From NCBI RefSeq assembly GCF_007741535.1, contig NZ_CP036525.1, positions 3,596,001 to 3,660,000 of the forward strand: 64,000 nucleotides of DNA. The letters run 5' to 3'. Source of the stretch: Rubripirellula lacrimiformis. Its GTDB lineage: Bacteria; Planctomycetota; Planctomycetia; Pirellulales; Pirellulaceae. The position numbers and the translations under genes are program-made. Shown here piece by piece: positions 29,848 through 60,064 of the stretch. The notes under the pieces were generated by a model. The model saw only the letters and a list, made by a program, of their open reading frames with translations. It ran no database searches and was not told where the DNA came from. Positions within the stretch are counted from its first letter, which is position 1, and each line of letters starts with the position of its first letter.

Positions 29848-31233
29848 ATGAATCGAGTTTCGTTTTCTGCGTCTCTTGTTGGCTTGATTCTGTTGGCAGT
29901 GCTGCCGCTGCGGGATTGCCACGCGGCGGATCAACCGAATGTACTGCTGATTTTAGCCGATGATCTGGGATACCAAGATCTTGGTTTTCAGGGCTCGCCG
30001 GATATCCAATCACCCCACTTGGACCGGATGGCGGGCAAGAGCATTCGGTTCACCGATGCCCATGTGACTGCGTCGGTGTGCAGTCCGTCACGAGCCGGTT
30101 TGTTGACGGGCCGATATCAACAGCGGTTTGGGCACGAAGCGAATTCGCCGCCGCATCCTCAGGGGATGGATAGAAGCGAAGCGACGATGGCCGACCGGAT
30201 GAAGTCGCTGGGATATCGAACTGCCGCGATCGGAAAGTGGCATTTGGGAGCCACCGATGACCAGTACCCAACGCGGCGAGGATTCGACACGTTTTATGGT
30301 TTGCGTGAAGGAGGGCGTGGATACCTTTACGACCAAGTTCGCTACGACAAGCCGGGCAACCATCGCGCGATCGAACGCGATGGCAAACCGGTGAAGTTTG
30401 CTGGCTACCTGACCGATGTGCTGGGGCAACAAGCGATCGACTTCATCGACCTGCCATCGTCAGACCCGTTTTTTGTCTACCTGTCCTTCACCGCGCCGCA
30501 CGGGCCGTTGCAGGCGACCGAAGAAGACCTACAGCGTTTCCAGCACATCGCGGACAAACGTCGGCGAACTTACGCCGCGATGGTATGGGCCATGGACCGC
30601 GCGATCGGAAAAGTGATGGACCATCTTCAGCAGATCGACCAGTTGGACAATACGATCGTATGGTTCCTTAGCGACAATGGCGGCGCAACCAACAATGCAT
30701 CCAGCAACGTTCCCTTGGCGGGACACAAGGGGATCAAGTTCGAAGGTGGGATCCGGGTTCCGTTTCTGATGCACTGGTCCGGGCGTTTTCAAGCTGGTCG
30801 AACGGAGGATCGGATGGTCAGTTCAATGGACATCTTGCCAACTTCTTTCGCAGCCGCCGGCGGTGATCCGAAGGTGATGTCCGATGGAAATCGTCCGGTC
30901 GATGGCGTGAACCTGTTGCCGTTTTTGTCCGGTCGGGATGATGGTGTGCCACACCGGAAATTGTATTGGCACAAACTGTGGTTCAGTGCGATGCGAGACG
31001 GGCCCTGGAAATTGATCTACGTCCAGGACTACGGCTATGCGCTATACAACGTCGCCGATGACGTCAGCGAAACATCGAACTTGGCGGCGAGGATGCCTGA
31101 ACGTACCGAAGCTATGGTGGCGGACATGAACCGTTGGAAACAGGATATGGCTCAGCCGCTGTGGAGCGAGGGTACGCGATGGTTCAAAGAGCACAGCAAG
31201 AACCACATTCGAATCATCGAAGGTGGACGCTAG
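29848..31233 (+). CDS. Secreted Cys-type sulfatase (second of three)
   Basis: A 461-residue product with a signal peptide (FSASLVGLILLAVLPLRDCHA). The core opens NVLLILADDLGYQDLG with both metal-binding aspartates, and the formylglycine site is VCSPSRAGLLTG with Cys78. GKWHLGA and FLSDNGGATNN complete the active site. It begins only 14 bases after the metX-metW stop and is probably in the same transcript. A hairpin (31245-31267) follows its stop. It probably cleaves sulfate esters outside the cytoplasm. Confidence 0.92.
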   Translation: MNRVSFSASLVGLILLAVLPLRDCHAADQPNVLLILADDLGYQDLGFQGSPDIQSPHLDRMAGKSIRFTDAHVTASVCSPSRAGLLTGRYQQRFGHEANSPPHPQGMDRSEATMADRMKSLGYRTAAIGKWHLGATDDQYPTRRGFDTFYGLREGGRGYLYDQVRYDKPGNHRAIERDGKPVKFAGYLTDVLGQQAIDFIDLPSSDPFFVYLSFTAPHGPLQATEEDLQRFQHIADKRRRTYAAMVWAMDRAIGKVMDHLQQIDQLDNTIVWFLSDNGGATNNASSNVPLAGHKGIKFEGGIRVPFLMHWSGRFQAGRTEDRMVSSMDILPTSFAAAGGDPKVMSDGNRPVDGVNLLPFLSGRDDGVPHRKLYWHKLWFSAMRDGPWKLIYVQDYGYALYNVADDVSETSNLAARMPERTEAMVADMNRWKQDMAQPLWSEGTRWFKEHSKNHIRIIEGGR

Positions 31234-31244
31234 CTTTCACCGTA

Positions 31245-31267
31245 GCGAAAGTTGCCAAAACTTTCGC
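31245..31267. terminator. Hairpin after the second sulfatase
   Basis: GCGAAAGTT and AACTTTCGC are perfect 9-base inverted arms around GCCAA, 11 bases after the stop codon. No long T run follows. The place fits transcription termination or RNA stabilisation. Confidence 0.5.
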
Positions 31268-31270
31268 CCG

Positions 31271-31374
31271 ACGAAACCACGCGACGAAACCACGCGACGA
31301 AACCACGCGACGAAACCACGCGACGAAACCACGCGTTGAAACCACGCGATGAAACCACGCGATGAAACCACGCG
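31271..31374 (+). repeat. 13-bp tandem repeat, eight copies
   Basis: The unit ACGAAACCACGCG is repeated eight times without gaps; the last three copies start TT, AT and AT in place of AC. It lies between two sulfatase genes. The unit has no internal symmetry. It is the simplest of the tandem repeats in the window. Confidence 0.9.
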
Positions 31375-31659
31375 TCGGTTGCGTCCAACCCCCGCGCACG
31401 ATCCCCCACCGCCATCTGCTCGCCAATCACGAATCGCCGTGAAGCGAATGTCACAGCATCGGCAGAGAGACCCGGCAACCGCCTTCGGTAATTCGGGATC
31501 AATCGTCGACGGATTTGCTGGCTGCGGTTTGCGTTTGGAATCGCCGATTTAGTTGACTTCGCATTCGGTGCCGATGACACTAACGCGTTCTCGTTGGTCG
31601 GCAGATCAGGTTGCCGTTTACCGACGCTGTGTTTGCAAATCAGTCCAGAGGCCCTTTCC

Positions 31660-33168
31660 ATGTTGCTACGTCGATCTTCGCGCCCGAGTCGGTTCGGTCC
31701 TTTTTCGGCCGGAGGTTCTGTGATTGGTCGTTGCAGATGGCTGTTCATCGCTTTCTGTTGTGTGCAAACGATCGCGTTGTTGCCATCGCGTTTATCGGCC
31801 GCCGAATCTGTCGATGCTGCCAAGCCCAACTTTATCGTGATCTTTACCGACGATCAGGGGTACAACGATCTGGGATGTTTCGGATCCAAGAAGATCAAGA
31901 CGCCCAACATTGACCGTATGGCTCGCGAAGGACGCAAATACACCAGTTTCTATTCGGCGTGTTCGGTTTGTTCGCCATCGCGAACGGCGCTGTTGACCGG
32001 GTGCTATCCCAAGCGTGTTGGCATGCACCGGCACGTGTTGTTTCCGCAAAGCGATTATGGGTTGAATCCAGCGGAATACACGATTGCGGATCACTTGAAG
32101 GCCCAGGGCTACGCGACCGCATGTGTCGGAAAGTGGCACCTCGGGCACCACCCCGAAACCTTGCCGACATCCAACGGATTCGATTCGTATTTTGGAATCC
32201 CCTATTCCAATGACATGAACCATCCGGGCAACCAAGGCAAACCACGCGTGCCATCGAATCAGTTGTGGGCTGACCAAGCGACCAGTGTCACGTTGTGGAA
32301 AACACCGCTGTTTCAAGATGAAGAGATTGTCGAGTTGCCTGTTGACCAACGTACGGTCACGCGCCGGTACACCGACCGCGCGATTGAGTTTGTGAAGTCG
32401 AATCGTGACGACCCGTTCTTTTTGTATCTGCCGCATTCGATGCCGCATATCCCGTTGTACGTGCCCGATGACGTCTACGATCCCGATCCGGCTAACGCGT
32501 ACACCTGTGTGATCGAGCATATCGACGCCGAGGTGGGACGATTACTAGACACTGTTCGGGAACTTGGCTTGGATCAAAATACGTACATCATTTACACCAG
32601 CGACAATGGCCCATGGCTGCAGTTCAAAAACCATGGTGGCAGCGCCGATCCACTGCGTGATGGGAAGGGCACTACGTTCGAAGGTGGCCAACGCGTGCCG
32701 TGTGTGATGTGGGCGCCTGGACGCGTGCCAGCAGGCACATCCTGTGACGAATTCACCACGACGATGGATCTGTTGCCTACGATTGCCAAACTGTCTGGCC
32801 AGCCGCTGCCCAGCGATTTGGTCATCGACGGTTTTGACATTTCAGGAACGTTCGATGAGAAGTCTTCGCCGCGAAACGAGATGGTTTTCTACAGTTCACG
32901 CGGGCTGTTGGAAGGGATTCGTGTGGGCGACTGGAAATACCTAAACAAGCAACGGGGCAAGCCTAAGAACGCGGGCAAGAATTGGAAACCGCAATCGCAG
33001 CAGTTCCTGTTCAATCTTGCCAACGACATTGGCGAGCAAGAGAATCTGTTCGAATCCCATCCTGAAATCGTCGCCAAACTGAGTGCTCGCATGAAGCAGG
33101 TCGACGACGAGGTCACCGCCAACGCTCGTCCAGTTTGGCGACGTCAGCCGGTGGCAATCGCAAAGTAA
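31660..33168 (+). CDS. Secreted Cys-type sulfatase (third of three)
   Basis: A 502-residue product from ATG at 31660, with an Arg-rich N-terminus before the hydrophobic signal (WLFIAFCCVQTIALLPSRLS). The core has KPNFIVIFTDDQGYNDLGCF, and the formylglycine site is VCSPSRTALLTG with Cys104. GKWHLGH and IYTSDNGPWLQFKNHGG are also present. Similarity in layout to the first sulfatase (KPNFIVI, DRM-AREGRK) suggests they are closer to each other than to the second. The 13-bp repeat lies upstream and the 97-bp array begins 57 bases after the stop. Confidence 0.92.
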   Translation: MLLRRSSRPSRFGPFSAGGSVIGRCRWLFIAFCCVQTIALLPSRLSAAESVDAAKPNFIVIFTDDQGYNDLGCFGSKKIKTPNIDRMAREGRKYTSFYSACSVCSPSRTALLTGCYPKRVGMHRHVLFPQSDYGLNPAEYTIADHLKAQGYATACVGKWHLGHHPETLPTSNGFDSYFGIPYSNDMNHPGNQGKPRVPSNQLWADQATSVTLWKTPLFQDEEIVELPVDQRTVTRRYTDRAIEFVKSNRDDPFFLYLPHSMPHIPLYVPDDVYDPDPANAYTCVIEHIDAEVGRLLDTVRELGLDQNTYIIYTSDNGPWLQFKNHGGSADPLRDGKGTTFEGGQRVPCVMWAPGRVPAGTSCDEFTTTMDLLPTIAKLSGQPLPSDLVIDGFDISGTFDEKSSPRNEMVFYSSRGLLEGIRVGDWKYLNKQRGKPKNAGKNWKPQSQQFLFNLANDIGEQENLFESHPEIVAKLSARMKQVDDEVTANARPVWRRQPVAIAK

Positions 33169-33225
33169 GGTCGATCTGCATCGAGCCATCCCATCGCAAA
33201 ATGCGTTGCGTCCGGATCGCCGGGC

Positions 33226-33629
33226 CGCCCGGGCAACGCGCGGCGCGCCCGAGCACGCGGCGACTCGACGGCGGGATGTGCGCGTTGGATCGCCCGCACC
33301 GCTTGGGCAACGCCCAGCGCGCTGGTGCGGCTGAAACGCGCGGCCCGCTGGGCACGCGGCGACTCGACGACGGATGTATGCGTTGGTTCGTTTAACCGCT
33401 TGGGCAACGCCCAGCGCGCTAGTGCGGTTCAAACGCGCGGCCCGCTGGGCACGCGGTTAAACGATGGTGGGTGTACGCGCTGGTTCGTTTAACCGCTTGG
33501 GCAACGCCCAGCGCGCTGGTGCGGCTGAAACGCGCGGTCCGCTGGGCACGCGGTTAAACGACGGCGGGTGTACGCGTTGGTTCGCCCGCACCGCTTGGGC
33601 AACGCCCAGCGCGCCAGTGCAGCTGAAAC
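33226..33629. repeat. 97-bp tandem array, left block
   Basis: About four units, decayed at the left edge. The unit consensus begins GCTGAAACGCGCGGCCCGCT and contains CGCTTGGGCAACGCCCAGCG; total length is 97 bases. The block is cut by the IS66 element exactly after GCTGAAAC at 33622-33629. Long open frames here are artefacts because 97 is not a multiple of three. Confidence 0.93.
33622..33629. repeat. Left copy of IS66 target site duplication
   Basis: GCTGAAAC, identical to 36227-36234 on the other side of the element. Eight bases is the size usual for IS66-family transposition. Confidence 0.9.
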
Positions 33630-33670
33630 GTAACCGTCCACCAGTGCCATTAAGCGTTGCGGGTTGACGG

Positions 33671-35431
33671 TTACTTTTTGATTCGTCGACGGCGAGCGCG
33701 GCGGATTCGTTTGCGATCGGCGGCTTGTCGGCGTTCGTCTTGGCGATACTCGCGGATGGATTCCGGGTGCGATTCTCGCCATGTGTGGGGAGACATCGCG
33801 GCCCAGTTGGTTTCGCCGACAAGTGCTCGACGCAGGACGTCTTCCAGGTACGCGTGAACGTCCAGGTCGTTTCGAATCGCTGTTCCGATGATTGTCATCA
33901 GGTTGGCGGCTCGTTCACCTGCCGACAACGAGCCTTTGAACAGCCAGTTCTTTCGCCCCGTCGCGACACGTTTCATTAACTGCTCGCAGTCGTTGTTGTC
34001 GATCGGGATCCCAGCGTCGTCGATGAAGCGACCCAGCGCCTCCCGGTGACGACAGATGTACGCGGCCGCTTGCCCGAGATTGCTTTTGGGAAGCACCTTC
34101 GGCGAACTCATCTGATCGCTGGCCAAGTACTCGTCGATCTGCCCAAGCACATGACTCGACAAGCTTCGGCGTCTGGCAAGTCGCTCCGCGTCACCCAACT
34201 CTTTGATTTGATCTTCGATGTCGTAGAGCATGCGGATCAGTGATTCCAGCTTGGCGACTTGGATCGGGAATGCGCTGCGGCACTCGTCGACCTTGCGGCG
34301 CGCATGCGCCCAGCACGCCGCCAACGTGATTCGCGAATCGCTGCGCACACCGATCTTTTGAAAGCCCGACCAGCAGTCTCCGATAAGTGTTCCTTCATAA
34401 TCCCCCAGTACGTCGTCCGGACCGTCGCGGTGGCGACTGACAGTGAAGTCGAACGCCACCACTGGAAGGCGTGAAGCGTAGTAGCCCCAGAAGTTCGCTC
34501 TGATACTCGGCTTTCCCGAATCGATCGCCTTGGCGAAGACCTCGCTGATCCGCTCACCGCGAGGATGGTTCGACAAGTCCGGCATCGTTCTTGGCGTGAT
34601 CAGCACGACGCCGGTATCGTCACAGCCAACGCAGGTGTCTGTTTTAAGAAGCGATCGCAGGTGCTCAGCCAACGGACGCAGCGTGAACTCCACGGCCGTT
34701 TCGATATTCGCCAGCGTGCTGCGACTGGGCGTCCAACCGCTGCCGGCGAACAAGTCCTGCTGGCGGTAAAACGGCAAGTGATAAAAGTATTTCCAGGCCA
34801 CCACTTCCACGCCGACCGAGGTGTCAAAGCGGTCACCTTGGACGAGTCCGGTCGGACGCTCGGGACTGGTGATGCCTTGGTTCTGATTGGCTGGGTGAAC
34901 GTACTTGGCGTATTTATTGACCCGCACGCGAAGCTCGGGCCGAATCCACTCGAGCGTTTCGACTTCGTCATAGCCGATCAGCTTGAGACCCTCGCGCCTG
35001 TCTTCGGGTAGGTCGATGATCCGCTCGATGCGAGGCAAGTGTTCGGGGAACTTGCGGTCGTTTTTGATGAGAGATTTGGACTTGCGTTTCTTCTGTTCTT
35101 CTTCGGCATCTTCGATGACTTGCTCGGCTTCACGGACGGCTTCTTCGAGCGCGCTGACCACTTCGGGCGTGGCTTCGTCGCCGAGATCTAGAAAGAGCTG
35201 GCCTTCGCCATCGGTGCGGCGTTCACTTCGCCGGCCAAAGAGTTGCTGAAGTAGCTTGTCGACTCGGAGCTGCAGGTCAACGTTTTCCGACTCGAGTTTG
35301 TCGTTGTGATTCTTCAACTCGAGAACCGAGTGGGCTTGCTGCTCGACTTGCGATTGCAAGCTCGCGACCAACCTCTGAAGATCTTTCACATCGCTGGGGA
35401 ACTGATCGTCGGTAAGTTGCTTTGTATCCAT
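33671..35431 (-). CDS. tnpC: IS66 transposase TnpC
   Basis: A 586-residue DDE transposase. The N-terminal coiled coil (SLQSQVEQQAHSVLELKNHN) is followed by LLQQLFGRRSERR, the zinc-binding-like linker region, then a DDE core with VGCDDTGVVL, LIGDCWSGF and the C-terminal IDNNDCEQLMKRVATGRKNW. AACWAHARRKVDECR is also typical. The length is slightly above the usual 510-550 because of a basic C-terminal tail (DERRQAADRKRIRRARRRR). All catalytic motifs are present. Confidence 0.95.
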   Translation of the reverse strand: MDTKQLTDDQFPSDVKDLQRLVASLQSQVEQQAHSVLELKNHNDKLESENVDLQLRVDKLLQQLFGRRSERRTDGEGQLFLDLGDEATPEVVSALEEAVREAEQVIEDAEEEQKKRKSKSLIKNDRKFPEHLPRIERIIDLPEDRREGLKLIGYDEVETLEWIRPELRVRVNKYAKYVHPANQNQGITSPERPTGLVQGDRFDTSVGVEVVAWKYFYHLPFYRQQDLFAGSGWTPSRSTLANIETAVEFTLRPLAEHLRSLLKTDTCVGCDDTGVVLITPRTMPDLSNHPRGERISEVFAKAIDSGKPSIRANFWGYYASRLPVVAFDFTVSRHRDGPDDVLGDYEGTLIGDCWSGFQKIGVRSDSRITLAACWAHARRKVDECRSAFPIQVAKLESLIRMLYDIEDQIKELGDAERLARRRSLSSHVLGQIDEYLASDQMSSPKVLPKSNLGQAAAYICRHREALGRFIDDAGIPIDNNDCEQLMKRVATGRKNWLFKGSLSAGERAANLMTIIGTAIRNDLDVHAYLEDVLRRALVGETNWAAMSPHTWRESHPESIREYRQDERRQAADRKRIRRARRRRIKK

Positions 35432-35471
35432 GATGTGTGATTGTACGCATCATGGATGCAAATGGTTTGGC

Positions 35472-35825
35472 TCAAGCGGCTTTCATTCGCTTACGTCTTG
35501 TCTTGGCGGATTTCAGTGACACGCCCGCGATCCACATGGCCAGTTCCACCGAATCGATCGTGACATGCGATTGGTCACCTTGCGGCTTTGGCAGCTCGAC
35601 GGTGCCTTGCTCGAGTCGTCGATACCACAGCGTCAGCCCGCCGGTTTCCCACCAGAGAGCTTTGATGCGATCCCGCTTGCGATTAACGAACAGGAACAAC
35701 GCTCCGCCGGTGACGTTGTGACCGAGCGATGCGGTGACGATGCCGGTCAGTCCGTCGAACCCCTTTCGGAAGTCGACCGGCGTGGTGCAGAGATAGATGG
35801 GAGTGCTGGTGGGCAGGCCGATCAT
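35472..35825 (-). CDS. tnpB: IS66 accessory protein TnpB
   Basis: A 117-residue product with the IS66 Orf2 pattern: YLCTTPVDFRKGFDGLTGIV, GGALFLFVNRKRDRIKALWW and GGLTLWYRRLEQGTVELP. Its start overlaps the tnpA stop by four bases (35822-35825). The protein is required for transposition of family members; its precise role is not settled. Confidence 0.95.
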   Translation of the reverse strand: MIGLPTSTPIYLCTTPVDFRKGFDGLTGIVTASLGHNVTGGALFLFVNRKRDRIKALWWETGGLTLWYRRLEQGTVELPKPQGDQSHVTIDSVELAMWIAGVSLKSAKTRRKRMKAA

Positions 35826-36151
35826 GACCGCACCGACGTGGGGCCCGTCGCCTCGAACCGGATACGAACGCCGCCGGGGAGCTCAACGGACATCATGGTA
35901 ACGGTTTCTGTCGGCGGGCTCAGTTCTGCTTGCCGGTTTGGGGGCAGACTGACAGGGATGAACCGGGGGAGCGACGGCGATGATGACGGGGTGTCGGCTT
36001 GCAGCATGCGACGCCACCGATAAAAGGAGGCGGGTGAGAAACCTTCGGCAGCACAGAACTGGGCAACGGTTTGGCTGCTCTGCTGAAATCGATCGATCCG
36101 ATCGATCCAGGATCGGCGAGTGGCGGCGTGGGAACGGTCAGTCATCGGCAC
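35822..36151 (-). CDS. tnpA: IS66 accessory protein TnpA
   Basis: A 109-residue product with a helix-turn-helix of the transposase-8 type: WIDRIDRFQQSSQTVAQFCA followed by EGFSPASFYRWRRML. It is the first gene of the element, 75 bases inside the right terminal repeat. The C-terminal part is Pro/Ser-rich. Presumed to bind element DNA. Confidence 0.92.
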   Translation of the reverse strand: MPMTDRSHAATRRSWIDRIDRFQQSSQTVAQFCAAEGFSPASFYRWRRMLQADTPSSSPSLPRFIPVSLPPNRQAELSPPTETVTMMSVELPGGVRIRFEATGPTSVRS

Positions 36152-36226
36152 GAGCTCCTAGTCACGAGAGAACACAAAGCTCCAACGCTAACCCACGCGC
36201 CTACAACGGTTCTGGTGTACGGTTAC

Positions 36227-38200
36227 GCTGAAACGCGCGGCCCGATGGGCACGCGGCTAAACGATGGCGGATGTACGCGTTGGTTCGTTTAACCGCTTGG
36301 GCAACGCCCAGCGCGCTAGTGCGGTTGAAACGCGCGGCCCGCTGGGCTCGCGGCGACTCGACGACGGATGTACGCGTTGGTTCGTTTAACCGCTTGGGCA
36401 ACGCCCAGCGCGCCGGTGCAGCTGAAACGGGCGGCCCGATGGGCACGCGGTTAAACGATGATGGGTGTACGCGCTCGGTTCGTTTAACCGCTTGGGCAAC
36501 GCCCAGCGCGCTAGTGCGGCTGAAACGCGCGGCCCGCTGGGCACGCGGTTAAACGATGATGGGTGTACGCGTTGGTTCGTTTAACCGCTTGGGCAACGCC
36601 CAGCGCGCTAGTGCGGTTGAAAAGCGCGGCGCGCCCGAGCACGCGGCGACTCGACGACGGATGTATGCGCTGGTTCGTTTATCCGCTTGGGCAACGCCCA
36701 GCGCGCTAGTGCGACTGAAACGCGCGGCCCGCTGGGCACGCGGCGGCTCGACGACGGATGTACGCGTTGGATCGCCCGCACCGCTTGGGCATCGCCCAGC
36801 GCGCTAGTGCGGCTGAAACGCGCGGCCTGCCCGAGCACGCGGCGGCTCGACGACGGATGTACGCGTTGGATCGCCCGCACCGCTTGGGCAACGCCCAGCG
36901 CGCTAGTGCGGCTGAAACGCGCGGCCCGCTGGGCACGCGGCGACTCGACGACGGATGTACGCGTTGGTTCGTTTAACCGCTTGGGCATCGCCCAGCGCGC
37001 CGGTGCAGCTGAAACGCGCGGCCCGCTGGGCACGCGGTTAAACGATGGTGAGTGTACGCGCTGGTTCGTTTAACCGCTTGGGCAACGCCCAGCGCGCTGG
37101 TGCGGCTGAAACGCGCGGTCCGCTGGGCACGCGGTTAAACGACGGCGGGTGTACGCGCTGGTTCGTTTAACCGCTTGGGCAACGCCCAGCGCGCTAGTGC
37201 GGCTGAAACGCGCGGCGCGCCCGAGCACGCGGCGACTCGACGACGGATGTACGCGTTGGTTCGCCCGCACCGCTTGGGCATCGCCCAGCGCGTCGGTGCG
37301 GTTGCAACGCGCGGCCCGATGGGCACGCGGTTAAACGATGATGGGTGTACGCGCTGGTTCGCCCGCACCGCTTGGGCAACGCCCAGCGCGCTGGTGCGGC
37401 TGAAACGCGCGGCCCGCTGGGCACGCGGCTAAACGATGGCGGATGTACGCGTTGGTTCGTTTAACCGCTTGGGCATCGCCCAGCGCGCTAGTGCGGTTGA
37501 AACGCGCGGCACGCCCGAGCACGCGGCGACTCGGCGACGGATGTGCGCGTTGGTTCGTTTACCCGCTTGGGCAACGCCCAGCGCGCTGGTGCGGCTGAAA
37601 CGCGCGGCCCGCTGGGCACGCGGTTAAACGACGGCGGGTGTACGCGCTGGTTCGTTTAACCGCTTGGGCAATGCCCAGCGCGCTAGTGCGGCTGAAACGC
37701 GCGGCGCGCCCGATCACGCGACAACTCGACGACTGATGTACGCGCTGGTTCGTTTAACCGCTTGGGCATCGCCCAGCGCGCTAGTGCGGCTGAAACGCGC
37801 GGCCCGCCCGAGCACGCGGCGACTCGACGACGGATGTATGCGTTGGTTCGTTTAACCGCTTGGGCAACGCCCAGCGCGCTAGTGCGGCTGAAACGCGCGG
37901 CGCGCCCGAGCACGCGGCGAATCGACGACGGATGTGCGCGTTGGTTCGTTTAACCGCTTGGGCAACGCCCAGCGCGCCGGTGCGGCTGAAACGCGCGGCC
38001 CGATGGGCACGCGGTTAAACGATGACGGGTGTACGCGCTGGTTCGTTTAACCGCTTGGGCAACGCCCAGCGCGCTGGTGCGGCTGAAACGCGCGGTCCGC
38101 TGGGCACGCGGTTAAACGACGGCGGGTGTACGCGCTCGGTTCGTTTAACCGCTTGGGCAATGCCCAGCGCGCTAGTGCGGTTGCAACGCGCGGCCCGCTG
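36227..38200. repeat. 97-bp tandem array, central block
   Basis: About twenty head-to-tail units of 97-99 bases, starting with the right copy of the IS66 target duplication. Each has the hairpin TTGGGCAACGCCCA and an outer pair GCCCAGCG/CGCTGGGC. Many carry the 11-base arms CGGTTAAACGA and TCGTTTAACCG; in others the left arm is replaced by GGCGACTCGACGAC or the right arm by TCGCCCGCACC. Units with CGGTCCGCTGG start at 37104 and 38082. The block ends at the second insertion sequence. Confidence 0.95.
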
Positions 38201-38259
38201 AGGCTGTGAATAATTGAGTTTTGGCTTGTTGGATTTCTGCATGGGGCTAAATTATTTGC

Positions 38260-39588
38260 ATGAAAATTCCAACCGATGCTCAGCAGCGTGGTTCCGCTCG
38301 CACCCACCGCCCCGAACGCAGCCAAGTTGAGATGCGGTTCTATTCGCTTGACCAGATGGTGGCCCGCGAGCACCGCGTTCGTTTGGTATGGCAGTACTGC
38401 GAATCGCTCGACCTCGGACCGCTTTACGAGAAGATTAAATCGAAAGTAGATGGTCGTGGTCGCACCCCGATCGATCCGCGAATCCTCTTCGCCCTGTGGT
38501 TCTACGCAACGCTCGAAGGGATCAGTAGCGCCCGCCGTTTGAGCGATTTGACCACCCGCGACTTCCACTACCTGTGGATCTGCGGCGATGTCACGGTTAA
38601 TCATCACACCCTGAGCGACTTTCGCAGCGGCAACGCCGAGTATCTCGAGAAGTTGCTTAGCGACTCGATCGCCGTGCTGCTGAGCGAAAAACTGATCACG
38701 TTGGATACCATCGGGCAGGATGGCATGCGGGTGCGTGCCTCGGCCGGCAGCAGTTCGTTTCGGTCCGAATCGACGCTCCAACAGATGCAAGAGGTTGCCG
38801 AAGACTATGTAAAGGAACTCGCCGAGCGATCCGACGAGGAAGCTGCCGCGGCAACTCGGGCCGAACAGGCCGCCCGCAAGCGTGCTGCCGACGAACGACT
38901 CGAGCGTATCAAGGCGGCTCAAGAGAACCTCAAAGAACTTGAGCGACGTCGTAAAGAGAAACGATCACGCAAAAGCAAGTCGACCCCACGAGCCTCCACA
39001 ACGGACCCCGAAGCGGCGCGGATGAAGATGGGAGACGGCGGTTTTCGCCCCGCCTATAACGTCCAATTCGCCAGCGACGGCGACTCTCGAATTGTCGTCG
39101 GCGTGAGCGTTGACAATCAGGGCAGCGATCAAGGTGAGATGCTTCCGATGTACGAGTCGATCTGCCGCACCTATGGGGTGACGCCGGCACACTACTTGGT
39201 CGACGGCGGGTTCACCAAAGCGAGCGATATCGAAGCGATGGACGCTGCGGGGACGGAGGTTTACGGTCCACTGAAGGACATCAAAAGACAAGTCGCTAAC
39301 GGCAAGGATCCCCATGCGAGCAAGCCGGGCGATAGCGACGCGATGGCGAGGTATCGAAAGAGGATGGGGACACCCGAGGCGCAGGAGATGTTGAGACGAC
39401 GTCCATCGATAGCTGAATTTCCCAACGCGGAATGTCGTAATCGCGGTCTTCATCAGTTCCGGGTTCGTGGCCAGAAGAAAGCAATGGCCCAAACGCTTTG
39501 GCACGTGCTGGTGAACAACTTCAATCGATTGAACAACCTAGGATTTTTACAAACACTGATGAGGCAATCCTGTACTGCGACGCCTTGA
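38260..39588 (+). CDS. IS1182-family transposase
   Basis: A 442-residue product. The N-terminal part (VEMRFYSLDQMVAREHRVRL and DPRILFALWFYATLEGISSA) and SDFRSGNAEYLEKLLSDSIA are typical of the family. The DDE-type core has TIGQDGMRVRA, LVDGGFTKASDIEA and the C-terminal LHQFRVRGQKKAMAQTLWHV. A charged helical insert (about residues 180-245, rich in Ala, Glu, Arg and Lys) separates the first Asp from the rest. It appears full-length and possibly active. Confidence 0.9.
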   Translation: MKIPTDAQQRGSARTHRPERSQVEMRFYSLDQMVAREHRVRLVWQYCESLDLGPLYEKIKSKVDGRGRTPIDPRILFALWFYATLEGISSARRLSDLTTRDFHYLWICGDVTVNHHTLSDFRSGNAEYLEKLLSDSIAVLLSEKLITLDTIGQDGMRVRASAGSSSFRSESTLQQMQEVAEDYVKELAERSDEEAAAATRAEQAARKRAADERLERIKAAQENLKELERRRKEKRSRKSKSTPRASTTDPEAARMKMGDGGFRPAYNVQFASDGDSRIVVGVSVDNQGSDQGEMLPMYESICRTYGVTPAHYLVDGGFTKASDIEAMDAAGTEVYGPLKDIKRQVANGKDPHASKPGDSDAMARYRKRMGTPEAQEMLRRRPSIAEFPNAECRNRGLHQFRVRGQKKAMAQTLWHVLVNNFNRLNNLGFLQTLMRQSCTATP

Positions 39589-39774
39589 GGTTGGCCTCCG
39601 GTCTCCAATCGTTGGACGCATCGCGTCCAACGAAGCTTCAAAGCGATCCACCAAGACAAAAGAACCACCGAAGCTTCAACCTGAAACTTTGACGACGACC
39701 GGCAATCCAAAATTTTTGAAAAACCACTTCAAAAACACGGCGTCAAGCCACAACCGGCCAATTATTCACAGTCT
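39589..39774. other. IS1182-like element right end, non-coding
   Basis: This is the tail of the element between the transposase stop and the right terminal repeat. It has no protein-like frame. Confidence 0.6.
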
Positions 39775-40346
39775 CGATGGGCACGCGGCGACTCGACGAC
39801 GGATGTACGCGTTGGTTCGTTTAACCGCTTGGGCATCGCCCAGCGCGCCGGTGCAGCTGAAACGCGCGGCCCGCTGGGCACGCGGTTAAACGATGGTGGG
39901 TGTACGCGCTGGTTCGTTTAACCGCTTGGGCAACGCCCAGCGCGCTGGTGCGGCTGAAACGCGCGGTCCGCTGGGCACGCGGTTAAACGACGGCGGGTGT
40001 GCGCGTTGGTTCGTTTAACCGCTTGGGCAACGCCCAGCGCGCTGGTGCGGCTGAAACGCGCGGCGCGCCCGAGCACGCGGCGACTCGACGACGGATGTGC
40101 GCGTTGGTTCGTTTAACCGCTTGGGCATCGCCCCGCGCGCCGGTGCGGCTGAAACGCGCGGCTCGTTGGGCACGCGGTTAAACGATGGTGGGCGTGCTCG
40201 CTGGATCGCCCGCACCGCTTGGGCACACGGTTAAATGATAGTGGACGTACGCGTTGGATCGTCCGCACCGCTGGGGCGGCGCCCAACGCATTGGTGCGAG
40301 TGAAACTTGCGGGCCGGCCGAGCACGCGGTCAAACGATTCTTGGTC
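39775..40346. repeat. 97-bp tandem array, right block
   Basis: About six units. The first three repeat, almost base for base, the three units that begin at 36911, including a CGGTCCGCTGG variant starting at 39953. The last two units are degenerate: CGCTTGGGCACACGG at about 40215 has lost part of the unit, and CGCTGGGGCGGCGCCCAACG is altered. The array ends about 85 bases before the stop of the next gene. Confidence 0.93.
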
Positions 40347-40432
40347 AACCCGGCGGGCGACACAGTGCTTCGGCGTCGAGTTTTTTTGCCACGATGTGGC
40401 GACAGCCTTGGCCCGGCGGGCTTGCCGACCGG

Positions 40433-41431
40433 CTAGCGAATGGTGCCGCGTAGCGGGTAGGCAGATGATGCGTCCGCCGAGTATTCGCTGGGGCCGCTGA
40501 CGATCGGTCGTGTTCCGATTCCGGTGGATGTGTTCGGACTGGTGCCGGTTGCGGCCATCGGCATGCCGCCCGACAGAGTTGTCAGGTCGACTTGGCGTGA
40601 TGCTGACGTGGGCATGGTGAACAGGTTCGGGTCGCCGCTAAGCAGTTGGTTGACGGTATAGTCGCTGATGTCGATTCGCATCGTCAGCGGTGGGCCCATC
40701 CCGGCGCCGGGGACTAGGTTCAAATCGACACGATGCGGCAGCACGCATTGTTGGGCTTCGTAATACCGATGGTTGGACGCCTGGCTTTGGGCCACCAGTT
40801 GCCCCGATGGGTTGTACAAATATTGATCGGTCACATAGCCGGCTTTCGGTTCGATGAACAGATCGCGTTGGTAGTTGCCGATGGAGGAAGCGATGGTGCT
40901 GCGTACTTGCAGTTTTCCATCGGGCAGCAAAATCGGACCGGCGACCACCGTGTTCGGATCAATCTGGGCTAGACCCAAGGCATCCATGATCCAGGTCGGG
41001 TCGACGGGAAGGATCGCGCGGTCAAGCTGTTGCTGATAGGCTTGATGGCTGGCGTAATACAGCTTTTTGGACATGTCTTCGGGAACTTCGAACCAGAAGA
41101 CGTCCTGGTTGCTTCCCATGTCAAAGCCCATCCCCAGCAGGATGGGGATACTTCCACGCAGGCGAAAGTTCTTTTCTCGCTGCAGATTCATCGTAGCGCT
41201 TAATCGCGGCACGCTAGGCATGCTTAGCAGTTCGATCGAGGCTGAATTCGTCGACAGTTGTTGGACGTTGGCGGTTCGATTGACGACCGTCGCAACTTCC
41301 TGCAATGTCGGTGTTTCGTTGAACACCACGGGCGGCGGTGGATAGGGTATCGCAGGCTGGCGACGTGCGCAGGTTGCGCCGCCAGAGACGAACAGGACGA
41401 ATCCCATGGCGATGATGCCGAAAGCTCGCAT
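40433..41431 (-). CDS. Secreted or lipoprotein-like hypothetical protein
   Basis: A 332-residue product with an N-terminal hydrophobic segment ending SGGATCARRQP, whose cysteine may be a lipid attachment site, although the lipobox is not ideal. Later parts, NLQREKNFRLRGSIPILLGM and DVFWFEVPEDMSKKLYYA, resemble outer-membrane lipoprotein carrier or LolA/DUF4292-type beta sheets. The C-terminal 60 residues are Ser/Thr/Gly-rich. Function unknown. Confidence 0.65.
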   Translation of the reverse strand: MRAFGIIAMGFVLFVSGGATCARRQPAIPYPPPPVVFNETPTLQEVATVVNRTANVQQLSTNSASIELLSMPSVPRLSATMNLQREKNFRLRGSIPILLGMGFDMGSNQDVFWFEVPEDMSKKLYYASHQAYQQQLDRAILPVDPTWIMDALGLAQIDPNTVVAGPILLPDGKLQVRSTIASSIGNYQRDLFIEPKAGYVTDQYLYNPSGQLVAQSQASNHRYYEAQQCVLPHRVDLNLVPGAGMGPPLTMRIDISDYTVNQLLSGDPNLFTMPTSASRQVDLTTLSGGMPMAATGTSPNTSTGIGTRPIVSGPSEYSADASSAYPLRGTIR

Positions 41432-41517
41432 CCGTGCGTGACTCCTGCGCAGTAAATAATCAATAGGAATGGGTTGGACAGGACGTTGGTTTCAGGCCGC
41501 CATGTCGGGTTGCTGCG

Positions 41518-42033
41518 TCAGGCGACGACGTCTTCGTCGGGGGCGGCTTCGCAGTACAGCAGTTCGTTCAATTCGTCGCGAAGCGTTTCAGATTCGCTGC
41601 GGGAAATTTCGCAGGTTTCGATATCGATTGTCGATCCATCCGCGATCACCTCGATTCGCATCTGGTTCTCGGCGAGTTCGGATTTGTCGGATTCAGCCGC
41701 GGGGCGGATCAATCGCCGACGCATCAGCATCAACGCCAACAAATAGCGGCTCTTGGCCTTCTCCGGAAACGGTTCCATCGACCGAAGCAAATCGATCAGC
41801 ACCTCGGGTGGAGCGAGCACCATTTTTCGTGCCGCCGAGGTCGGCATTTGTTTCTTCCACCAACCGACGGCACCCTCGGGTGGTTCGGTCCATGATTCCG
41901 CTGAATAGTCGTGTCGGACGTAGTCGTCACCGGATTCGCTGATGACGCTGTAATACCATTCGCCTTCGCGCAGCGGTCGCTTCAATGCATGGCATTGGCG
42001 AGTGCAGCGGTTCAGTTTGTATTCACCAAGCAT
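41518..42033 (-). CDS. Conserved planctomycete hypothetical protein
   Basis: A 171-residue product from ATG at 42033 (an in-frame TTG is four codons upstream). It begins LGEYKLNRCTRQCHALKRPL with a CxxxC pair that could bind metal, then REGEWYYSVISESGDDYVRH and a helical core SAARKMVLAPPEVLIDLLRS. I recall it as a protein often present in planctomycetes beside core genes; the role is not known. Confidence 0.65.
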   Translation of the reverse strand: MLGEYKLNRCTRQCHALKRPLREGEWYYSVISESGDDYVRHDYSAESWTEPPEGAVGWWKKQMPTSAARKMVLAPPEVLIDLLRSMEPFPEKAKSRYLLALMLMRRRLIRPAAESDKSELAENQMRIEVIADGSTIDIETCEISRSESETLRDELNELLYCEAAPDEDVVA

Positions 42034-58828: not shown

Positions 58829-59698
58829 TTAGCTGACCAGTTGCAGACCGTCCAACAATGCAGTCGCCGCGTCGCTTTTGTTCAGCACGTAATAGTGGAT
58901 GCCAGGGACATCGTTTTCGACCAAGTTGACGGTTTGCATTCGGGCGTGTTCGACACCGATGCGAAACTGCTCGTCAGCATCCTCGGTCGCGTCCATCGCC
59001 TTTTCCAGATCGTACGGGATCCTGGCTTTGCACATCGTTGCGATCCGCTGGGCCTGTTTGAAATTGGTGACCGGCAAGATGCCTGGCACGATCGGAACAT
59101 TGATTCCAGCGGCGACACAGCGGTCACGAAAGCGGAAATAGTCGATGTTGTCGTAGAACAACTGCGTGATGATGATATCGGCTCCGGCATCGACCTTTCG
59201 CTTCAGATTTTCCAGGTCCGTTTTTGCATCGGGTGACTCTTGGTGCACTTCGGGGTAGCCCGCGACAGCAATGCCCAGGTTCGAAAACTTGCTGTGGATC
59301 AATTCCACCAATTCGTTGGCGTATCGCAGCCCACCTTCCACAGCGACGAATTCTTCGGTGCCTTTGGGGGGATCGCCGCGCAGTGCAACGATGTAGTCGG
59401 TGCCCTGGGCGGTGGCTTCGTTGAGGTACGATTCCAATTCTTCTACGGTGGAACCGACGCAGGTCAGGTGAGACGCAACCGGCAGGTTCGTGATCTCACG
59501 CACCTTGGCGAGCACCGATAGCGTGGTGCCACGAGTCGACCCGCCGGCACCGTAGGTGCATGTAAAGTAGCTGGGTTTGAACTCGCACAACCGGCGCACA
59601 TTGTCGGCCAGCGATTCCAAGCCCTGAGCGGTCTTTGGCGGGAACAGTTCGAACGAGATTGCGCAGCGAGAATCTTTGTAATGCGAAATCAGACTCAT
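58829..59698 (-). CDS. metF: 5,10-methylenetetrahydrofolate reductase
   Basis: A 289-residue product from ATG at 59698 (the open frame continues upstream into repetitive leader sequence, where it reads KSTAKSTGKST and is not real). It has ISFELFPPKT, FTCTYGAGGSTRGTTLSVLA, TDYIVALRGDPPKG and ADIIITQLFYDNIDYFRFRD. It reduces methylene-THF to methyl-THF for methionine synthesis. It is near the methionine-related genes but 30 kb away from metY-metX. Confidence 0.93.
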   Translation of the reverse strand: MSLISHYKDSRCAISFELFPPKTAQGLESLADNVRRLCEFKPSYFTCTYGAGGSTRGTTLSVLAKVREITNLPVASHLTCVGSTVEELESYLNEATAQGTDYIVALRGDPPKGTEEFVAVEGGLRYANELVELIHSKFSNLGIAVAGYPEVHQESPDAKTDLENLKRKVDAGADIIITQLFYDNIDYFRFRDRCVAAGINVPIVPGILPVTNFKQAQRIATMCKARIPYDLEKAMDATEDADEQFRIGVEHARMQTVNLVENDVPGIHYYVLNKSDAATALLDGLQLVS

Positions 59699-59815
59699 CG
59701 GTTTACCTGTAGAAATGGATCTTATGGATTGGTTTTGGCGGCAGCGTATGCAGGCTGTGGCAGCGTGCGTGCAGCGAATGGCGTGGGTGCCCGAAATTCG
59801 ACGGGGCAATTTGGC

Positions 59816-59875
59816 GGTTGATTTGCCGGTTGATTTGCCGGTTGATTTGGCGGTTGATTTGGCGGTTGATTTGCC
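59816..59875. repeat. 12-bp tandem repeat upstream of metF
   Basis: Five copies of GGTTGATTTGCC or GGTTGATTTGGC follow each other with no gaps. They lie in the region between phyH and metF, about 120 bases before the metF start. Confidence 0.85.
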
Positions 59876-59930
59876 GGTGCGTTTGCGGTGGACTTTCGAT
59901 TTCAAGGAAATCGGAACGAAGGTCCCCGAT

Positions 59931-59975
59931 GTCCGGCGCTGATTTGTCCGGCGCTGATTTGTCCGGTGTTCATTG
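59931..59975. repeat. 15-bp tandem repeat upstream of metF
   Basis: Two exact copies of GTCCGGCGCTGATTT and one altered copy (GTCCGGTGTTCATTG). It neighbours the 12-bp repeat and shares the TGATTT core with it. Confidence 0.75.
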
Positions 59976-60064
59976 TTCAGTGGCCCGTATTTGTTTTCCG
60001 AAACTGGGGGGGCGTTTTCAGAAAATGGCGTTCGTTTTTTAGAATAGACGAAAGGAAAGGCCAT

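Follow-up and report, generated by a model that had tools for sequence, protein, structure and literature searches.

In Pseudomonas fluorescens SBW25, repetitive extragenic palindromic (REP) sequences form inverted doublets, the REPINs (REP doublets forming hairpins), a REP-associated tyrosine transposase (RAYT) gene lies next to a cluster of the REPIN that belongs to it, and some clusters are tandem and include flanking DNA (Bertels and Rainey 2011, PMC3116915; comparisons with published systems, here and below, refer to parts of the cited texts). The GTAG and CGTC REP super-families, members of which are reported in Planctomycetes too, are short palindromes that carry a conserved, unpaired tag at one of their ends; they are mainly intergenic and sometimes tandem with flanking DNA (Di Nocera 2013, PMC3733652). 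Dispersed families of non-coding long-repeat satellites are also described in prokaryotes, Leptospira interrogans and Methanocella conradii being the only members of the reference set that have them (Subirana and Messeguer 2019, PMC6749651). Here we describe a tandem array in a 64,000-nucleotide stretch of the planctomycete Rubripirellula lacrimiformis, referred to as the window (G000:C1:3596001-3660000 of the 8.54-Mb single-contig genome). The units of this array are very probably REPINs of a REPIN-RAYT system, whose arrays would have been seeded via the RAYT and then amplified locally.

The system shares with SBW25 the inverted doublet unit, the RAYT gene adjoining a cluster of its cognate REPIN, and tandem clusters that include flanking DNA. 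It differs in organization, since the SBW25 REPINs are mostly singlets and the largest ordered cluster there consists of four REPINs and one REP, whereas 36 of 39 clusters read here hold two or more matches. It also differs in its tag, which is TCGTTTARC. The same distinction separates it from the GTAG and CGTC REPs, whose palindromic form and occasional tandem arrangement it otherwise shares, as it may their mostly intergenic position: the tag core, GTTTA[AG]C, differs from both GTAG and CGTC. The prokaryotic satellites are likewise dispersed families of long non-coding repeats, but in the text available no transposase is tied to them. The array is divided by two insertion sequences (ISs), and its parts are as follows.

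33226..33629, + strand, REPIN array segment 1, four left-arm anchors (Tandem Repeats Finder and unit list)
33622..33629, second copy at 36227-36234, GCTGAAAC, the 8-bp target duplication of the IS66-family element
33630..36226, − strand, IS66-family element with tnpC (33671-35431), tnpB (35472-35825) and tnpA (35822-36151)
36227..38199, + strand, REPIN array segment 2, 20 left-arm anchors (Tandem Repeats Finder and unit list)
38200..39775, + strand, IS1182-family element of 1,576 bp whose ends read GAGGCTGTGAATAATTG and, inverted, GAGACTGTGAATAATTG; it occupies the trinucleotide loop in the right-arm hairpin of a REPIN
38260..39588, + strand, IS1182-family transposase, 442 amino acids
39776..40346, + strand, REPIN array segment 3, five left-arm anchors, with a right edge that is degenerate from about 40209

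Without both ISs the array consists of 2,948 bp of REPIN units (404 + 1,973 + 571), with 29 left-arm anchors at steps of 97-99 bp, or about 29-30 units. An earlier note, made from the letters of the window, had described about thirty 97-bp units interrupted by two ISs, and this description is confirmed; both unit motifs that it named are present in the sequence. Tandem Repeats Finder detected a period of 97-98 at 33235-33630, 36227-38200, and 39778-40208, the middle block comprising 20.2 copies with 87% match and a score of 2704. Mean pairwise identity among the 26 complete units is 0.868, and in eight of these the right arm is disrupted, CCCGAGCAC or CCCGATCAC replacing GNTGGGCAC (read from the unit list). 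A block of three units has been duplicated within the array, the blocks being 98, 97 and 92% identical.

Each unit consists of a REPIN of ~76 bp and a spacer, in the order tag TCGTTTAAC and bulged hairpin (left arm), short loop, inverted bulged hairpin and tag (right arm), and spacer. The two arms are inverted near-copies of each other, and the loop between them is ~12-16 nt in most arrays and 23 nt in one. The consensus, derived from 234 near-complete elements that were selected by a pattern demanding both arms and came from the window and 19 of 20 fetched regions, is TCGTTTAACCGC[G/T]TGGGCA[A/T]CGCCC[C/A]G[C/T]GCG, then the variable loop, then CGCGCGGCCCGNTGGGCACGCGGTTAAACGA. The repeat is unusually structured, as the earlier note had stated. 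Both strands fold better than shuffled sequences (z of −2.37 and −2.47) and paired columns covary. Left-arm pair 13-26 occurs as G-C in 170 units and as T-A in 63; six of the 20 sets have T-A as their consensus, so the change goes back to one or few events. Covariation across species was assessed with 18 of 32 REPs, those with a GCC/GGC upper stem, so that only the lower stem tests covariation, and it covaries in three of five measures relative to shuffles.

Between array medoids, the arms are 0.91-0.92 identical, the loop 0.52 and the spacer 0.44 (shuffled spacer, 0.42). Spacer length ranges from 16 to 54 nt among array medoids and is ~20 nt in the window array, so the claim of the earlier note that the array has no spacers must be amended: neighbouring elements are separated, by a sequence that is alike within an array (mostly 0.7-0.95 identical) and different between most arrays. 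The accompanying conclusion, that the array is not a CRISPR, holds for a different reason, because the spacers within an array are alike and not unique. A few arrays have common spacer families, for example, 875290, 877816, and 5823649 (28 of 30 medoid spacers were compared), suggesting that units or blocks seeded some arrays together with the spacer that they carried. A coding repeat was also ruled out, in agreement with the earlier note, because 97-98 is no multiple of the reading frame and because the commonest unit step varies from ~94 to 130 bp between related arrays.

The earlier note had proposed a search for clustered copies elsewhere and had held that a single array, absent from close relatives and without a transcript, would speak for neutral expansion. 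A search of the R. lacrimiformis genome with the 97-nt consensus gave at least 406 matches at E ≤ 0.001, with 40 of 123 first-look candidates scored, and the window array is therefore not the only one. The REPIN system exists almost wholly as satellite-like tandem arrays. In 1,551,681 bp read directly, which were chosen partly for holding arrays, 333 matches fall into 39 clusters, of which three have a single match, an IS-split array counting as two or more clusters; the best matches of any one cluster all have the same orientation. Sixty evenly spaced 20-kb windows (1.2 Mb) served as an unbiased, systematic sample. Eight of them contained the element, its 72 matches at E ≤ 1e-3 all lying in runs of two or more, and at E ≤ 1e-2 two partial lone matches appeared, at 6026579 and, at a window edge, 7585497. 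No isolated REP arms, allowing up to seven mismatches, were found outside the clusters and their 400-bp margins. According to an open reading frame (ORF) heuristic applied without curated annotation, the arrays sit between longer ORFs; the flanking ORFs of the 26 of 28 array regions that it classified are convergent in 15, same-direction in 10 and divergent in one. Many arrays show an identity that is flat with distance between units, and arrays are homogenised.

The REPINs probably depend on one transposase gene located elsewhere in the genome.

G000:C1:5222195-5222806, RAYT-type HUH transposase gene, 204 amino acids, first found by a weak PF01797 match at 5222435-5222599

The element profile matches on both sides of this gene, three times before it and eight times after it. 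The protein contains the motifs QHVH and YVIENP and matches NF047646 (REP-associated tyrosine transposase) with an E of 4.4e-12; H102, H104, Y172, N176, and P177 are invariant across 20 aligned RAYT sequences (the alignments hold 20 and 22 sequences of 81 loci, rows with internal stops or doubtful ends being excluded). A search of PHROGs gave no match and a PDB sequence search gave nothing convincing. The predicted model of a homolog with 55% identity, L127, resembles the REP-bound RAYT 4er8 as well as the transposases of IS608 and ISDra2; the predicted fold is that of Y1 transposases. Five other Y1 loci of the genome (2947958, 2854212-2854962, 7485839, 2750916, and 407365) lack the element within their 1.5-kb flanks.

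A search of genome contigs detected 80 RAYT-homologous loci, nearly all from Planctomycetota by title. At L127 the element is found on both sides (E of 0.0022 and 0.00017). The hairpins flanking other RAYT homologs differ in sequence, and the tag is mostly kept: among the 28 of the 30 closest loci with 150 bp or more on each side, GTTTA[AG]C is present on both flanks in 22 and on at least one flank in 24. In its longer form, TCGTTTA[AG]C, it is found in R. lacrimiformis and in most close homologous RAYT flanks. The presence of the element on both sides of the RAYT gene, together with the tag kept in homologous flanks, argues for a REPIN-RAYT system with a tag that is neither GTAG nor CGTC. In Pirellulaceae bacterium M30B19 (L198:944-7873), a degraded RAYT homolog lies between tandem REP arrays of ~45, 3, 13, and 16 copies with 71-80-bp units, so that long arrays recur in the RAYT clade.

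By its motifs, the protein can be compared with TnpAY1 class 3, which occurs mainly in Planctomycetes, Acidobacteria, and Proteobacteria (PMC6006769). It is like that class in the W[TA] motif, in the YV start of the Y motif and in the atypical flanking hairpins of many copies. In contrast, the Y motif here is YVxxNP, which is of the class 2 type (YVIENP in R. lacrimiformis), and not the YV[VI]xEQ of class 3, and the foot is TCGTTTARC (TCGTTTAAC in R. lacrimiformis), not CnGA. Judged on motifs only, then, the RAYT fits no motif row of PMC6006769 exactly, and the tag falls outside the GTAG/CGTC super-families.

An IS1182-family element targets this repeat, and its insertion is specific for the REPIN hairpin loop. 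The genome contains at least 12 copies, 10 of them near-identical and two at ~75% identity (40 of 44 candidates scored). All 12 copies found lie in the right-arm hairpin, flanked by GCCC and GGGC, and either orientation of the IS occurs. Both ends were read for 11 copies, and in 10 of these the trinucleotide loop is repeated on both sides of the element, as GAT, GCT, GGC, AAC, ATC, or AAT. In the window copy the left trinucleotide is GCT and the right one GAT, a mismatch that suggests later recombination between copies. The twelfth copy (L304) has GCT on the left, and its other end, beside cluster 875290, also has GCT. The window copy has terminal inverted repeats and its transposase matches NF033551 with 312.7 bits (cut-off 270); the other IS matches the IS66-family models NF033517 (261 bits, cut-off 180), NF033819 (98.1, cut-off 50), and NF047593 (64.3, cut-off 28). 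IS1272/TnSha1 (PMC4923244) is also of the IS1182 family and inserts into hairpins, but it is described as making blunt cuts in the stems of unrelated hairpins with partial deletion of the target, whereas the insertions reported here duplicate the trinucleotide loop of a single REP hairpin. Tobes and Pareja (2006, PMC1525189) described other ISs whose copies occupy a fixed position in REPs, but these belong to the IS3, IS110, IS4, IS256, and IS5 families, and IS1182 is absent from the available text of that paper. With 12 of 12 copies found at one hairpin loop, the IS1182-family element is a clean case of structure-guided insertion. The earlier note missed both this specificity and the mobile-element identity of the repeat; its interpretation as a whole is partly supported.

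To determine the distribution of the repeat in relatives, 60 genomes were searched with the 97-nt consensus, which was found at E ≤ 0.001 in four, R. lacrimiformis included. It had no match at E ≤ 1e-3 in 20 of the 21 other genomes of the genus, with at most 15 candidates scored per genome, which was all of them in 18 of the 20, 15 of 22 in G001 and 15 of 24 in G011. The repeat is lineage-specific. The nearest relatives have kept the genes next to the array and lack the array itself. In G001 the array is absent between the orthologs of its two flanking genes, which encode a sulfatase and a 332-aa protein, and other genes fill the interval; in G011 it is absent beside the gene for the 332-aa protein, the sulfatase ortholog being elsewhere on the contig. 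The refutation named in the earlier note, a single array, fails: there are many copies in R. lacrimiformis itself, although most of its genus gave no match.

The element is carried by G021 (same genus), G027 (same family), and G036, with at least 94, at least 116 and two matches, respectively (both strands of one place are often listed; 40 of 455 candidates were scored in G021 and 40 of 120 in G027). In G021 it is dispersed, with a single element in 39 of the 40 clusters listed, and G027 has both singles and small arrays, 25 of the 36 clusters listed being single. Loci were obtained for 30 of the 38 NF047646 matches in these three genomes, and the element profile hit none of them. The tag motif occurs in a few of these loci, and on reading none proved to be a hairpin of the R. 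lacrimiformis element family. RAYT homologs at L205 (G021) and L203 (G036) lie beside a different hairpin repeat with ACTCGCTTGCGCGTCG or a near variant, in tandem in G036. At L100 (G021:C13) a RAYT-like gene is followed by GGGCCGGGGGCCCATGCTAC repeats, which read as GTAG-tagged REPs on the other strand.

The RAYT-driven movement and amplification of the REPINs would proceed as follows. The RAYT would recognise the tag and hairpin in single-stranded DNA, cleave at the tag and seed further loci. A unit seeded in this way, together with a stretch of neighbouring DNA, would then grow into an array by local tandem amplification, and the arrays would be homogenised by unequal exchange or slippage, which fits the three-unit block duplication and the homogenised arrays. 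Arrays would persist where they are least harmful, mostly behind converging genes.

Several observations weigh against this reading. The R. lacrimiformis RAYT scores below curated cut-offs (46.1 of 80 bits for NF047646 and 21.6 of 23 for PF01797). The tag count of the close RAYT set (with 1.91 GTTTA[AG]C motifs per flank, versus 24 motifs in 519 background windows) is not blind, because the motif was fixed after the flanks of 26 of these loci had been read; among 48 more distant RAYT loci, not read beforehand, the tag is on both sides in eight and on at least one side in 10 (0.29 motifs per flank, versus 61 in 889 windows, 39 of those 61 from L198 alone). Eleven of the 60 genomes have a RAYT match and four have the repeat, and both occur together only in R. 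lacrimiformis. The RAYT profile had no match in G027 at E ≤ 1, all 41 candidates being scored, and the RAYT-like loci examined in G021 and G036 are without the element. Against a strict RAYT-REPIN link, the chief finding is that G021, G027, and G036 carry the element and that no cognate RAYT was detected there; RAYT loss would explain it. Of 28 array regions, 15 are overlapped by an ORF of at least 110 aa, whether an IS transposase, the RAYT, a short ORF or an ORF located between merged clusters. No orientation bias with replication was seen (17 versus 19 clusters), greater decay at array edges was not clear (12 of 21, p 0.076), and two of the five covariation measures are not above shuffles (double-change pairs 453/500; pair types 467/500). 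Movement, excision, and length change were not observed in the genome sequences analysed.

It is unlikely, although compatible with a REPIN origin, that the arrays are selected chromosomal sites, kept as transcription stops or as gyrase or nucleoid-protein sites behind converging genes. The preponderance of convergent over divergent flanking ORFs would be expected of such sites, and E. coli bacterial interspersed mosaic elements (BIMEs) bind gyrase and integration host factor (IHF; introduction of Nunvar 2010, PMC2817692). The same convergent bias, however, is expected if selection removes insertions from promoters, and a selected site sits poorly with the absence of the repeat from most of the genus and of the array beside the conserved neighbouring gene in G001 and G011. 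Less likely still is a pure satellite, in which host recombination and slippage alone made and spread the arrays and the RAYT is a bystander. The flat identity with distance, the block duplication, the common spacer families, and the failure to find a cognate RAYT in the three other carriers would all suit that explanation. It does not account for the element on both sides of the RAYT gene in R. lacrimiformis and at L127, nor for the tag on REPs flanking homologous RAYTs in many planctomycete records, and slippage does not make single dispersed elements such as those of G021.

The suggestion in the earlier note that the array could be a source of structured RNA is not supported. An array of structured or small RNA genes is very improbable, even though the folding of both strands and the covariation of paired columns are what such genes would show. 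A search of 31000-42000 against Rfam reached no gathering score, the only hit, to RF03037 (18.8 of 61.1 bits), lying beyond the array at 40758-41000. Arms that are near-inverse copies are expected of a DNA hairpin element, and the repeat is lineage-specific; an RNA gene thus appears unsupported, because Rfam is negative and the REP architecture explains the hairpins. The least probable explanation, and one we hardly credit, is that the units are integron-like attC-type recombination sites. The attC core consensus is RYYYAAC/GTTRRRY, and GTTTAAC/GTTAAAC in the outer stem fits it, but cassettes are absent between units, which are separated only by the short spacers, and the RAYT association explains the motif.

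The REPIN-RAYT interpretation, which we prefer, joins three things that have been studied separately: REPINs, bacterial satellite arrays, and hairpin-targeting ISs. The tag common to the RAYT clade predicts what the protein recognises. The element family seems to exist in three states, as dispersed singles in G021, as a mixture in G027 and as nearly all arrays in R. lacrimiformis, and the transition from REP to tandem array thereby becomes testable. A bolder possibility, to which we give limited credence, is that a planctomycete RAYT clade with the tag TCGTTTARC drives the local tandem amplification itself, for example, by rolling-circle-like copying of a nicked REPIN and its flank. This would be a domesticated HUH transposase making true satellite DNA, with an IS1182-family element that has specialised on the satellite hairpin loop as a harmless place to insert.

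Two convergent genes flank the window array.

31594..33168, + strand, sulfatase gene (PF00884, E of 8.9e-60), with its 3′ end towards the array and convergent with ORF 40433-41431
40433..41431, − strand, gene for a conserved 332-aa protein, lipoprotein-like according to the earlier note, with its 3′ end towards the array

The sulfatase gene is where the earlier note had placed it, preceding the array. The 332-aa protein has no Pfam or NCBIfam match at E ≤ 0.001, and its gene is present in 21 of 22 genomes of the genus, R. lacrimiformis included. Other repeats were encountered in the same genome. Upstream of the sulfatase ORF there is a 13-bp tandem repeat of 8.2 copies with unit CGACGAAACCACG (window 31269-31374), and a 12-bp tandem repeat, ATTTGCCGGTTG, lies at 59809-59878 of the window, inside the minus-strand ORF 58829-60064. 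An unrelated 128-bp tandem repeat of 3.9 copies was found at G000:C1:4431073-4431570 (L064), and a long CRISPR array with the repeat GTTTCAATCCACGCGCCCGTGAAGGGCGCGAC lies ~2 kb from a REPIN array (L066, G000:C1:3312395-3318347).

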